Origin: JBFLYE01 sp040756715 [NCBI: bacterium]
Lineage (GTDB): Bacteria > UBA9089 > UBA9088
Assembly (NCBI GenBank): GCA_040756715.1
Contig: JBFLYE010000053.1
Location: 1-5,618 of the forward strand
Length of the DNA: 5,618 nucleotides
Direction of reading: 5' to 3'
The translations under genes were made by a program, and so were the position numbers. Positions 1 to 4,508 of this stretch are shown piece by piece. The notes beneath the pieces were generated by a model. It had not been told where the DNA came from. It saw only the letters and a list, made by a program, of their open reading frames with translations, and did not search any database. Positions within the stretch are counted from its first letter, which is position 1. Each line of letters begins with the position of its first letter.

Positions 1-13
1 ATCTTAAGGAAAA

Positions 14-128
14 CTTTATATAAAATTTTGAATTTTGAATGTTGAATTTTGAATTAAAAGGGGAAAAATTTTATAAAACTTACCCTTCAATCCAAAATTC
101 AAAATTTAGAATTCAAAATTTTATAAAG
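14..128. repeat. Inverted pair of TTTTGAA-type heptamer repeats
   Basis: The left arm (about 14-55) carries several TTTTGAA heptamers, one degenerate. The right arm (about 91-128) carries the reverse complement, AATTCAAAATT units. Both arms share the outer sequence CTTTATA(TA)AAATTTTGAATT, so they can pair into a long imperfect AT-only stem around a loop of about 35 bases (56-90). The right arm overlaps the last codons and the TGA stop of nadD (stop at 113-115), so the repeat supplies the end of that protein. The stem could slow or end transcription leaving nadD, but it has no GC-rich core followed by a T-run, so I do not call it an intrinsic terminator. There is no gene in 1-112. Confidence 0.8.
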
Positions 129-721
129 TAAAGCCCCTTTTCTTGAATATACCTTTCTACATCATCGGGAAGCAAATATTTTATAGAAAGCCCCTTTTTT
201 ATCCTCTCCCTTATAAGGCTTGATGAAACAGGCAATGTGGGAAATTCAACCAACTCTATTTTTGAATTTTGACTTGCAATTTTGACTTTTGACTTTTGAC
301 TTTTGACTTTAATTTTAAACCCCTCTCTGGTTACGGCAACAAATTTTATCATCCCAAAGAGCTTTTCTATATCCTTCCACTTACAAAGCTCGGGGATTGT
401 ATCTGTGCCTATGATAAAATAATAATCGTTTTTATCGCCATAAATAGATTTTATCTCCCTAATTGTATCTATTGTATATGAATATCCCCCTTTTTTAATT
501 TCAAGGTTCACTGGAATAAATGATTTATTATTCTTTAAGGATAACTTTAACATCTTAAATCTATCTTTTGAATTTGCAATTGGTTTTGGTTTATGTGGAG
601 GAATACCTGATGGAACAAACAAAACCATTTCAAGTTCAAGTTTTTCTTTAACTATTTCTGCGGCTTGGAGATGGCCAAAATGGACAGGGTCAAATACACC
701 ACCCATTATTCCAATCTTCAT
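113..721 (-). CDS. nadD: Nicotinate-nucleotide adenylyltransferase (NadD)
   Basis: This cytosolic enzyme joins nicotinate mononucleotide and ATP to give deamido-NAD, the penultimate step of NAD synthesis. The 202-residue protein opens with the nucleotidyltransferase signature GGVFDPVHFGH (residues 7-17, with HxGH at 14-17). It continues with PPHKP (41-45), GGYSYTIDT (78-86), FIIGTD (102-107) and the ISSTxIR-type motif SSSLIRER (166-173), and ends with the usual YLLPDDVERYIQEKGLY. The order and length fit NadD. The ATG at 721 is the only start that keeps the N-terminal motif, and a GAGGG about 10 bases upstream may serve as ribosome-binding site. The gene lies four bases after the end of a decayed gene and in the same direction as proA, a common partner. 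Residues 138-155 (Lys/Ser/Gln-rich) are encoded by a heptamer array, and the last residues and stop lie in another repeat. Neither touches the catalytic motifs. Confidence 0.95.
   Translation of the reverse strand: MKIGIMGGVFDPVHFGHLQAAEIVKEKLELEMVLFVPSGIPPHKPKPIANSKDRFKMLKLSLKNNKSFIPVNLEIKKGGYSYTIDTIREIKSIYGDKNDYYFIIGTDTIPELCKWKDIEKLFGMIKFVAVTREGFKIKVKSQKSKVKIASQNSKIELVEFPTLPVSSSLIRERIKKGLSIKYLLPDDVERYIQEKGLYFIKF
260..310. repeat. Heptamer tandem array inside nadD
   Basis: Read on the + strand, this is TTTTGAA (260-266), TTTTGAC (267-273), a 6-base break TTGCAA (274-279), then four perfect TTTTGAC copies (280-307) and a partial one. Three heptamers equal 21 bases or seven codons, so the array stays open in the nadD frame. 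It encodes the basic linker of residues about 138-155 (KVKSQKSKVK and following). It is a variant of the TTTTGAA repeat found just past the gene. Confidence 0.9.
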
Positions 722-725
722 AATT

Positions 726-964
726 TTATCCCTCTATTCCAGCTTCCTCCAGACTTTTCTTCAACAAATGTTTTAAATTCAATTTATCTGCCCAACAATA
801 TCCAATCGCCTCCCCTGCACCTTCAATACCCCTAATACATCACTCCACTCTCTATCCGATACCTCGCCACCCATTTTATACCATTGCAATTTACTTAAGA
901 TAGTATCTTCAGGTGTAGAAATATAGGCAGTGTATCGGGTGAGAGTGTTTTCATTTAACTTCAT
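726..964 (-). pseudogene. Truncated, frameshifted AbiEii-like nucleotidyltransferase remnant
   Basis: An ATG-initiated 61-codon frame (964 to 779) encodes the phrases STPEDTILSKLQWYKMGGE and WSDVLGVLKVQG. I recognise these as the C-terminal part of a family usually annotated as hypothetical or AbiEii-like nucleotidyltransferase. It has neither the N-terminal half nor the nucleotidyltransferase GS...D.D motif. After LDI (about 797-805) the family-like sequence moves to another frame: 24 codons from 800 to a TAA at 728-726 read YCWADKLNLKHLL, then KKSLEEAG, matching the expected WAxxLGVxxLLxxAL ending. From memory of the family, about 13 bases are missing at the join. The remnant starts 14 bases after the proA stop and ends four bases before nadD, so it fills that gap exactly. 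The family name rests on recall of typical sequences; the frame switch is read directly. A short expressed protein from the 61-codon frame cannot be excluded. Confidence 0.65.
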
Positions 965-978
965 TCTGCCAAAAAAAT

Positions 979-2208
979 TTATTTTCTAATCTGACCCTCT
1001 CCAAAAATGACGAATTTTGAGGATGTAAGCTCTTTTAGCCCCATTGGACCCCTGGCATGGAGCTTTTGGGTTGATATGCCGATTTCAGCCCCTAAGCCAA
1101 ATTCAAATCCATCGGTGAACCTGGTTGAGACATTTACATAGACACTAGCAGAATCAATCTCCTTAAGAAATCTTAAAGTTTTACTATAAGAATTTGTTAT
1201 AATGGAGTCAGAATGGTGCGAGCCATAATGATTTATATGAAATATTGCCTCATCCAAAGAGGAAACGACTTTTATGGATAAAATAAGGCTTAAATATTCT
1301 GTTTTCCAATCATCCTCTGTGGCAGGAATAATATCTTGGACAATCTCCCTTACCCTTTCATCTCCCCTTATTTCACATCCTGCATCCTTCAATCTTTTTA
1401 TTAAATTTGGTAGAATATCTCTTGCAATATCAGAGTGAACAAGCAATGTCTCCATTGCATTACAAACCCCTGGTCTTTGAACTTTGGCATTATAAGCTAT
1501 ATCTTCTGCCATTTTAAGGTCTGCCTCATTATCAATATAGACATGGCATATCCCCTCTCCATGGCTAATAATAGGAACCTTTGCTCCTTCTCCAATTTCT
1601 TCAATAAGCCTTCTTCCTCCCCGTAATATTATGCAATCTATGTATTCTTTAAGGGATGCTAACTCCTTAACGCCTTCTCTTTCCTCAATAAACCCTATGG
1701 CGTCCTTTAAATCTCCCAAAGCATCCTTTATAAGATTGACAATAAATTTATTGGAATTTAAAGCCTCAGATCCACCTTTTAATATTACAGAATTAGAAGA
1801 TTTAAAGCAGAGAGAAAAGGCATCGGCTGTAACATTTGGCCTTGCCTCATAGATTATCCCAATTACACCTAAAGGGTGCCTCATTTTTCCAACTAGCATC
1901 CCATTCGGTCTCCTTGTCAGATCATAGATCTCAAAAACAGGGTCGGGAAGTAAGGCAACAGCTCTAATTCCAGAAACCATATCCCCTACCCTTTTTTCAT
2001 TAAGCAAAAGCCTATCTGTCAAGGCAGAAGAGAGACCTATTCCTTTTGCATAGCTTAAATCCTTCTCATTCTCCTTAAGCAGAGCTTTTTCTTTTTCAGA
2101 AATTTTACTTGCTATTTTAAAAAGAATATCATCCTTTTCCTTTGAGGAAAGACTAAGGAGTTTATAGGAGACCTCTTTGGCTTTTTTGGCAATTTCTCTT
2201 GTTTCCAT
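979..2208 (-). CDS. proA: Gamma-glutamyl phosphate reductase (ProA)
   Basis: This cytosolic enzyme reduces L-glutamyl-5-phosphate with NADPH to glutamate-5-semialdehyde, the second step of proline synthesis. The 409-residue protein is full length for the family. Landmarks include MRHPLGVIGIIYEARPNVTADA (about 109-130, split here only by naming), LKGGSEALNSN (143-153), and the catalytic cysteine Cys249 in RPGVCNAMETLL. The family C-terminal block VSTRFTDGFEFGLG is followed by LHARGPMGLKEL. The ATG at 2208 starts METREIAKKAK, the normal start of ProA. No Shine-Dalgarno sequence precedes it. A promoter-like element ends six bases upstream, so the message may be leaderless. ProB, which makes the substrate, is not adjacent: the upstream neighbour is divergent. 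Downstream come a pseudogene and nadD on the same strand with no evident terminator, so proA and nadD are probably cotranscribed. Confidence 0.97.
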   Translation of the reverse strand: METREIAKKAKEVSYKLLSLSSKEKDDILFKIASKISEKEKALLKENEKDLSYAKGIGLSSALTDRLLLNEKRVGDMVSGIRAVALLPDPVFEIYDLTRRPNGMLVGKMRHPLGVIGIIYEARPNVTADAFSLCFKSSNSVILKGGSEALNSNKFIVNLIKDALGDLKDAIGFIEEREGVKELASLKEYIDCIILRGGRRLIEEIGEGAKVPIISHGEGICHVYIDNEADLKMAEDIAYNAKVQRPGVCNAMETLLVHSDIARDILPNLIKRLKDAGCEIRGDERVREIVQDIIPATEDDWKTEYLSLILSIKVVSSLDEAIFHINHYGSHHSDSIITNSYSKTLRFLKEIDSASVYVNVSTRFTDGFEFGLGAEIGISTQKLHARGPMGLKELTSSKFVIFGEGQIRK

Positions 2209-3375: not shown

Positions 3376-3396
3376 GGATTTAGCAAGAATTTTACT

Positions 3397-3430
3397 GGTG
3401 TTTTGGTGCTTTGGTGCTTTGGTGCTTTGG
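3397..3430. repeat. Octamer tandem array (GGTGCTTT) before the DUF362 gene
   Basis: Four units of eight bases run head to tail: GGTGTTTT (3397-3404), then GGTGCTTT at 3405, 3413 and 3421, ending with a partial GG at 3429-3430. The array lies in the 56-base gap between the DRTGG gene stop (3375) and the DUF362 ATG (3432). The last unit places GGTG seven bases before that ATG, where it could pair with the CACC part of the 16S anti-Shine-Dalgarno end, so the repeat may double as ribosome-binding site. Confidence 0.9.
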
Positions 3431-3431
3431 A

Positions 3432-4508
3432 ATGCCTAAGGTTGCCATTCTTAAAACATCCCCTCAAACCATTATTGATGATTATAAAAGGCTCATTCAC
3501 TTGGTTGAATATGAAAAATGCCTTTCTTGCGAAAGAGACCTTATTCTTAAACTCAATCTCTCCTGGACGAAATACTTTCCATCTTGTTCAACAGAACCCT
3601 GGCAGCTTGATGGTGTTTTAAATTGCCTTATTGAGGATGGTTTTCTTCCCTCAAAGCTATTTCCCGTTGAGAATAAAACCGTGGTTACAAACACCTTAAA
3701 GGGAGCATCTGATAATAAATGGCTCTCTATCTTAAAGAAATACCACTTAAAATTTATAAGCCTTCCTGAGGTAGAATGGACGGTTTTTAAGTTTAAAGAA
3801 AGGCTTCTTGTAATAGATAAGATATTTCCCGAAGGTATTTTAATCCCAAAGATGTTTATAGGAAAAGATATTCTACATCTTCCAACCATAAAGACGCATG
3901 GACACTCAATTACAACAGGGGCTATAAAAAATGCCTTTGGTGGCTTACTAAAGGAATTCAGGCACTATGCCCATAAATACATCCACGAGGCATTGGTTGA
4001 CTTGCTTATTATGCAAAAAGAGCTTCACCCTGGTATTTTTGCTGTAATGGATGGGTGTGTTGCTGGAGATGGTGCAGGTCCTAGGACTATGATTCCTAGG
4101 ATAAAAAATGTCCTATTGGCATCATCTGATTCGGTTGCGATAGATGCTGTATCAGCAAAGCTTATGGGATTTGAACCAATGGAGATTCCATATATTAAAA
4201 TGGCTAATGATATGGGTCTCGGTGTTGGTAAGATCAAGGATATAGAGCTTGTTGGAGATATTGATACAATCAATGAAAATTGGAATTTTAAGGTAAAAAG
4301 AAGCCCTGTTATCTTTGTTGACCAAATGATTAGAAAGGGATTTTTACAAAGGTTTGAAAGAATCCTTCTTCATTCACCATTATGGCGTTGGGCACCAATT
4401 GCCTCAAATTTCTATCACGACATCCTTTGGTATCCAACAATTGGAAGAATAAGGATAAATAAATTTATGAAAACAGAATGGGGAAAGCTCTTTAGGTCTT
4501 ATGAATGA
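3432..4508 (+). CDS. DUF362 domain protein
   Basis: The 358-residue protein matches the DUF362 pattern. It opens with PKVAILKTSP. It then has the region LILKLNLSW...STEPWQLDGVL (37-63), which corresponds to the family's KPNL...TTDP segment, then LPTIKTHGHSITTGAIKNAFGG, then MDGCVAGDGAGP and SDSVAIDAVSAKLMGF. DUF362 proteins have no agreed reaction, and many members carry a ferredoxin-like 4Fe-4S domain. This one has no such C-terminal cluster, but it has an N-terminal CLSC pair (Cys30, Cys33) plus Cys52 and Cys65, whose role is unknown. The C-terminal 60 residues are rich in Trp, Arg and aromatic residues and could lie against a membrane. I chose the ATG at 3432 over a TTG at 3411 because the extra residues come from the octamer array and the family normally begins with xxVAIxK. 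It follows the DRTGG gene by 56 bases and overlaps the next gene by four bases (ATGA). Confidence 0.85.
   Translation: MPKVAILKTSPQTIIDDYKRLIHLVEYEKCLSCERDLILKLNLSWTKYFPSCSTEPWQLDGVLNCLIEDGFLPSKLFPVENKTVVTNTLKGASDNKWLSILKKYHLKFISLPEVEWTVFKFKERLLVIDKIFPEGILIPKMFIGKDILHLPTIKTHGHSITTGAIKNAFGGLLKEFRHYAHKYIHEALVDLLIMQKELHPGIFAVMDGCVAGDGAGPRTMIPRIKNVLLASSDSVAIDAVSAKLMGFEPMEIPYIKMANDMGLGVGKIKDIELVGDIDTINENWNFKVKRSPVIFVDQMIRKGFLQRFERILLHSPLWRWAPIASNFYHDILWYPTIGRIRINKFMKTEWGKLFRSYE

Follow-up and report, generated by a model that had tools for sequence, protein, structure and literature searches.

Repeat DNA that is tolerated in frame within protein genes is known from the Rickettsia palindromic elements, which form palindromic families without a 7-base period, and tandem heptamers, mainly intergenic, are known from the STRR heptanucleotide repeats of cyanobacteria. 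Closer in period are the heptamer simple sequence repeats (SSRs) of the GGGNATC type in Xanthomonas and Nostoc, described as one G-rich unit type that is over-represented in non-coding DNA (Rehm et al., 2015, PMC4692102). The TAACTGA repeats of the Beggiatoaceae comprise one unit in 169 sets, which are mostly intergenic and, where they occur in proteins, mainly peripheral (MacGregor, 2015, PMC4679880), and the four-unit heptanucleotide elements of Geobacter metallireducens are reported as one family of 49 copies, predicted to be regulatory RNA elements (PMC2700814). In most bacterial genomes, heptamers reportedly outnumber all other classes of longer simple repeats, and according to one idea 7 nt is the stretch in contact with a polymerase (both as cited in PMC4679880).

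The window, i.e., the whole stretch of 5,618 nucleotides analyzed here, stems from genome G000 and contains a heptamer array inside nadD (Table 1). The encoded protein scores 216 bits against NF000840 (equivalog cut-off 150) and 187.5 bits against TIGR00482 (cut-off 112.45), matches NadD chains of the PDB with E values down to 1e-37, and its structural model agrees with solved NadD over the whole length (best Z 26.7 for 5deo, rmsd 1.8, 179 aligned residues). The TTTTGAC-type heptamers that the initial annotation had reported in this gene were recovered by TRF with a period of 7, 7.4 copies, 80% match and 4% indels, the copies being less regular at the low-coordinate end. Their assignment to a linker of about residues 138-155 likewise agrees with the codon display, in which residues 136-154 read KIKVKSQKSKVKIASQNSK. 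Because 7 mod 3 = 1, three GTCAAAA units yield the seven codons VKSQKSK, and since the opposite strand reads TTT TGA (stop), only the GTCAAAA orientation is possible inside a gene. In the fold, this surface linker leads from strand E126-132 to strand E155-160, and the array falls into the least confident stretch of an otherwise confident model, whose mean pLDDT is 88.1, with block means of 71 for residues 131-140 and 51 for residues 141-150.

Table 1. Positions of the features in the window and in the loci compared with it, each numbered within its own stretch.
Stretch	Feature	Positions	Strand	Basis and remarks
Window	Copy of the dispersed MITE-like element of G000	1-128		left end CTTAAGGAAAACTTTATA at 3-20; right end inferred
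Window	Left heptamer arm of the dispersed element, 32 nt, 4.6 units	24-55	+	TRF; inverted pair
Window	Right, inverted heptamer arm of the dispersed element	89-120	-	TRF; spacer 33; codon display
Window	nadD, nicotinate-nucleotide adenylyltransferase, 202 aa	113-721	-	stop codon 113-115; NCBIfam NF000840; PDB NadD chains
Window	Heptamer array, sense unit GTCAAAA	260-310	-	TRF, codon display; encodes NadD linker, about residues 138-154
Window	Perfect core of the nadD array, 4.4 units	280-310	-	sequence
Window	Octamer array TGGTGCTT x4.4	3396-3430	+	TRF; directly before probable true start of downstream gene
L181 (G001)	Site of the window's octamer array	17529-17564		TGGTGCTC in all four units
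L183 (G001)	TpiA, triosephosphate isomerase	94-855		best solved match 1b9b; 4.9 CTTCCCA units
L252 (G001)	ValS, valyl-tRNA synthetase	2-1966		best solved match 1gax; arrays in two loops
L189 (G001)	Octamer array of a gene copy	8020-8043		frame lost there (read by eye)
L186 (G001)	Array with change of reading frame	17861-17885
L036 (G016)	Perfect 32-nt GATTTTC array	2062-2093		adjoins nadD match
L087	Selenomonadales arrays	2806-2837, 3604-3635
L089	Selenomonadales array	2806-2837
L092, L101	Selenomonadales arrays

To compare the linker among relatives, NadD was retrieved by protein search, which found it in 59 of 61 genomes; 21 sequences were aligned, and 37 named relatives separately. Counted from the conserved F135 up to the strand that follows, the linker comprises 19 residues here, 11 in G001, 6 in G002 and 8 each in G003 and G004. 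G001, the only genome of the same genus, encodes a NadD that is 88% identical, and in its linker, shorter by 8 residues, the corresponding position is taken by another heptamer array (GCTCAAT/GCAAAAT), so that VKSQKSK is faced by AQCSMLNAKCK. In each of the two nearest genomes a different repeat occupies the NadD loop. The NadD of G002 and the four Bacillus-type solved chains whose alignments were examined are devoid of 12-13 of the linker residues, 12 being absent from the solved chains; other solved NadDs are longer. The comparison with close relatives over residues 138-155, suggested earlier, showed shorter linkers in all of the nearest ones (G001-G004). Among distant relatives, the linker of G045 is nearly as long and those of L109 and L115 are longer, all three differing in composition and free of the TTTTGAC repeat. 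Among the aligned NadDs, none without this repeat had a linker of the same length and composition. Judged from these alignments, a long NadD linker as such is not unique to this genome, and the variable linker lengths across relatives indicate that the site is a generally variable loop. As a separate observation, in G016, a member of the same phylum, a perfect array adjoins the nadD match, and heptamer arrays, AATTAGG among them, were noticed at four Selenomonadales loci, several being 32 nt long and near nadD.

The search of the whole genome for other such arrays, suggested by the initial annotation, was positive. Two successive TTTTGAM units gave 115 matches in G000 vs. 2 for a reversed-pattern control, and three exact TTTTGAC units gave 7 matches, corresponding to 4 separate arrays, while the control gave 0. 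Three exact units occurred in 5 of the 290 genomes searched, namely G000 (4 arrays), G001 (6), G002 (1) and two distant genomes, and they lie inside open reading frames (ORFs) of at least 70 aa, as called by ourselves, in 4 of 4, 5 of 6 and 1 of 1 cases in G000, G001 and G002, respectively. The idea that a repeat family of this genome has entered a coding sequence at a loop therefore stands as regards the class of repeat and the loop, whereas the heptamers just downstream, which had been counted to the same family, turned out to belong to a separate element. They were considered as an overflow of the coding array, which was rejected since they are the inverted arms of a dispersed, MITE-like element. 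The right arm includes the stop codon of nadD, whose last codons therefore stem from this element; it is a second, different invasion of the gene. Allowing up to 1 mismatch, its left end was found 92 times in G000, once each in G001 and G004, and in neither G002 nor G003. The 92 matches against a single one in the congener indicate that it probably spread recently in this species. Including the window, the stretches of G000 under study contain 18 inverted arm pairs, whose spacers mostly measure 33-34 nt, besides 25 unpaired arms, and further G000 stretches examined contained more copies. No copy was found with the identical exact 18-base end on both sides, which is why the right end had to be inferred.

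Many contigs of G000 start or finish within the dispersed element, which seems to break the assembly. Together with the fragmented state of both drafts (218 and about 330 contigs), this could suggest that the arrays themselves are an assembly or consensus artifact. However, the coding arrays are short (~33 nt), lie mid-contig in unbroken conserved genes, and the pattern appears in unrelated genes of two genomes and of G002 as a further member of the family, which makes an artifact highly improbable.

We surveyed 1,370,316 unmasked bases from the genomes G000 and G001, a part of which had been chosen because it held matches; 196,765 bases of G000 and 821,599 bases of G001 were not chosen in this way. 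Perfect arrays of at least 22 nt in the full survey comprised 49 of period 7 and 21 of period 8, compared to 0, 0, 4, 0 and 5 for periods 5, 6, 9, 10 and 11, and a Markov control gave 0 for each period. In the parts not chosen by matches, 27 arrays of period 7 or 8 were found in G000 and 77 in G001 (TRF score at least 42). The TRF periods of G001 are led by 7 (60 arrays), followed by 14 (40), 21 (23), 12 (22), 15 (19) and 8 (17); period 8 is thus outstanding among perfect arrays and no longer so once mismatches are allowed. The surveyed arrays comprise 57 distinct unit sequences, some of which, such as AAAAGTC, AAAATGC and AAAGGCAC, are common to unrelated genes, and coding arrays occur about once per 11.7 kb of coding DNA, with ORFs being uncurated greedy calls of at least 60 aa, among which NadD, TpiA, ValS and the other genes of the window were identified. 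In comparison, 80 named NadD loci (506,405 bases) contained 9 arrays of period 7 or 8, all in the four Selenomonadales loci, and 28 nadD loci of relatives (94,610 bases) contained 8 arrays, all in four genomes of the same phylum. G002 (88,707 bases) lacked arrays of periods 7 and 8 and had two with period 14, and G003 (43,148 bases) had two of period 7. The array pattern is genus-wide, and the NadD array is one case of many.

The length of the arrays is nearly constant, irrespective of the unit. A length of 30-37 nt applies to 69 of 93 coding arrays, and the preference for about four units that is known for bacterial heptamer SSRs is present here as well. Perfect period-7 arrays show a bimodal distribution with almost none above 37 nt (14-17 nt, n = 52; 18-21 nt, 68; 22-25 nt, 9; 26-29 nt, 6; 30-33 nt, 17; 34-37 nt, 16; above, 1), in which the short class includes, unseparated, pieces of broken arrays and of dispersed-element arms. 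Perfect period-8 arrays count 11, 19, 8, 5, 2, 5 and 1 over the same bins, and among mismatch-tolerant arrays there are a few far longer ones of up to 176 nt. If mismatches are allowed, the range of 30-37 nt takes in 54 of 71 coding period-7 arrays and 69 of 90 intergenic ones. It had been expected that arrays inside genes favor multiples of three units, which keep the frame, yet only 2 of the 71 coding arrays differ from 21 or 42 nt by no more than 1 nt. We rejected this expectation; the 30-37 nt peak is common to coding and intergenic arrays, and consequently the process, and not the reading frame, sets the length.

To follow individual sites between the two species, 134 orthologous pairs were defined as reciprocal best hits of G000 and G001, with a median DNA identity of 0.851 and 0.727 of fourfold third positions identical. 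The resulting table has 23 rows representing 21 distinct sites, some rows of period 14 and 16 being ordinary coding sequence; after two long unaligned ends and two unclear cases had been set aside, 17 sites were classifiable. Five of these have a different unit or period in the two genomes, i.e., NadD, two loops of ValS, L160/L258 and L141/L235 (period 7 vs. 8), four have the same or a near unit, and eight have a clear array in one genome only. These counts depend on the cut: four of the one-genome sites (both L146 sites, L153/L247 and the terminal site of L151) lie just past P 0.01 in the other genome, three of them with an identical unit or one that deviates by a single base, and the second L141 site has P 0.042 there. 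With a looser cut, both L146 sites, the L151 terminal site and the second L141 site join the same or near class and L153/L247 differs in period, so that turnover no longer outnumbers conservation. Furthermore, L147/L229 are 45% identical and of doubtful orthology, L159, scored as a site of G000 alone, seems to represent the dispersed element, and the L170/L255 start array, identical in both species, probably precedes the true start codon and may be non-coding. Where the unit does differ, 2-5 of 7 bases are changed throughout the array at an ortholog identity of 0.851, which is not what point drift would produce. At the site of the window's octamer array, each of the four units of the congener differs from its counterpart by one base, always at the same position. 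In TpiA, the loop that holds the array of the congener is shorter in G000 and shorter still in G002, and the TpiA and ValS arrays of the congener fall in stretches whose alignment with solved chains is poor. Within G001, four paralogous copies of one family carry four different units at one loop, while a fifth copy has no array.

Differing units at tolerant loops might also be the trace of independent insertions, if each array were the half-element of a REPIN- or MITE-like mobile repeat that was inserted whole. The fixed length of ~32 nt equals one arm of the dispersed element of G000, the sharing of units among unrelated genes would fit as well, and so would the presence or absence of arrays between orthologs, as in L145/L251 with 4 vs. 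18 residues. However, 57 unit sequences are unlike one element, and both species carry arrays at 9 of the 17 sites despite the low density of coding arrays. Moreover, a Y1/REP-type transposase (PF01797) has no match in the 95-97% complete drafts of G000, G001 and G002, although this family is present in 10 of 19 genomes searched and in 5 of 14 control genomes, so that a RAYT/Y1 transposase was rejected as the mover of the arrays. Taken together, we consider insertion of whole half-elements unlikely.

Changes of reading frame at arrays raise a further scenario, namely that gain and loss of units switches genes off and on by phase variation. In L189 of G001, the octamer array of one gene copy is 8 nt shorter than that of its paralog, and in L186 the frame changes at the array as well. 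However, a scan for frame changes flagged only 3 of 281 array regions (L238, L186 and L248, of which only L186 has long homology on both sides), a number that is an undercount since the scan requires a homolog on both sides and missed L189. In addition, nadD, tpiA and valS are among the host genes, and a cell could hardly afford to switch these off; with their 4-5 units, the arrays are also short for slippage at a high rate. We thus give phase variation only a slim chance.

The position of the arrays relative to genes varies with their purity. In the G001 sample not chosen by matches, 25 of 30 perfect arrays of period 7 or 8, defined by a match run of at least 14, lie in ORFs, at a coding fraction of 0.881, compared to 41 of 77 mismatch-tolerant arrays, and imperfect arrays lean intergenic. 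The mostly non-coding location described for Xanthomonas, Nostoc and the Beggiatoaceae is thus not seen for perfect arrays here. Perfect arrays make up 20 of 41 coding vs. 1 of 32 intergenic ones in this sample (Fisher p 1.3e-5), and 2 of 10 vs. 0 of 16 in the corresponding sample of G000 (p 0.14). The reading of coding arrays is related to their surroundings: for 41 arrays that are open both ways, the chosen reading follows the hydropathy of the flanks (Spearman 0.52, p 0.0005), where the p value is too small because paralogs and orthologous pairs make the rows non-independent, while for all 81 coding arrays the correlation between array and flank is only 0.22 (p 0.048). Of 17 hydrophobic readings 11 are near N-termini. 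One might speculate from this match, from the place of the hydrophobic readings and from the higher purity of coding arrays that the arrays are selected at the protein level as linkers or spacers. However, the hydropathy match is explained equally well by the avoidance of damage, the peptides encoded by orthologs such as NadD are completely different, and the NadD of G002 as well as the Bacillus-type chains do without most of these residues. Selection for linkers is therefore improbable in our opinion.

The arrays are numerous, stand in frame in many ORFs, differ in unit at several orthologous sites and are nearly constant in length. We regard it as probable, though far from settled, that the NadD array is a member of a genus-wide set of short tandem arrays of period 7, less often 8, that settle at about 30-37 nt, arise and are homogenized by slippage-like repair and are kept where frame and hydropathy survive. 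Slippage or template-switching repair with a step of 7-8 nt would give birth to the arrays and rewrite them; a variant unit would then spread through the whole array by concerted evolution, or the array might be copied anew from another array of the genome. The octamer site, with its base difference in all units, and mixed-unit arrays such as that in the NadD gene of G001 point to homogenization within the array, the shortened array of L189 to the loss of single units, and the units common to unrelated genes to copying between sites, which hints at more than local slippage alone. Selection would remove versions that break the frame or bear stops, so that survivors would be found in loops, signal peptides and termini, and the array of NadD would be a tolerated, functionally neutral linker with fast sequence turnover. 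However, there are observations against this reading: plain slippage predicts falling lengths instead of a bimodal distribution with a near cut-off, the concentration of perfect arrays in genes is the reverse of what simple neutrality predicts, and the excess of turnover over conservation vanishes with the looser cut. An alternative that could be envisioned is a dedicated, length-measuring process that writes and rewrites ~33 nt arrays of an interchangeable word of 7-8 bases, genes included, whereby protein loops would continually receive new low-complexity peptides in place of the old ones, at an unchanged site and length; this we put forward as a speculative and rather doubtful scenario.

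The 7-nt idea becomes testable in a genus with dozens of heptamer words of near-fixed length in orthologs, where changes of unit can be tallied at each site and compared with the known level of divergence. Furthermore, since NadD, ValS and TpiA accept the replacement of whole loops, the arrays provide a natural record of where proteins tolerate insertions. As regards the described systems, it is already known from the published accounts that heptamer arrays exist, that they favor four units and that some of them lie in genes (PMC4692102, PMC4679880, PMC2700814). As in the Beggiatoaceae, some of the heptamer arrays are read as protein in one orientation only, yet here there are many units, and they occupy internal loops of conserved enzymes. 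In contrast to the SSRs of Xanthomonas and Nostoc, we find dozens of units that are mostly not G-rich, with perfect copies mainly in ORFs and with units that differ between the orthologs at some sites. The part of the Geobacter metallireducens report considered here does not describe a switch of units between orthologous sites, and a literature search over open-licence papers found no description of different heptamers at orthologous coding sites. Published mobile coding repeats resemble our arrays as coding tandem repeats that apparently move within genomes, but, as presented in the part of that work considered here, theirs is a protein motif of 25 residues and not a 7-base period. Measured against these systems, the turnover of units at fixed coding sites, and at fixed length, looks new.
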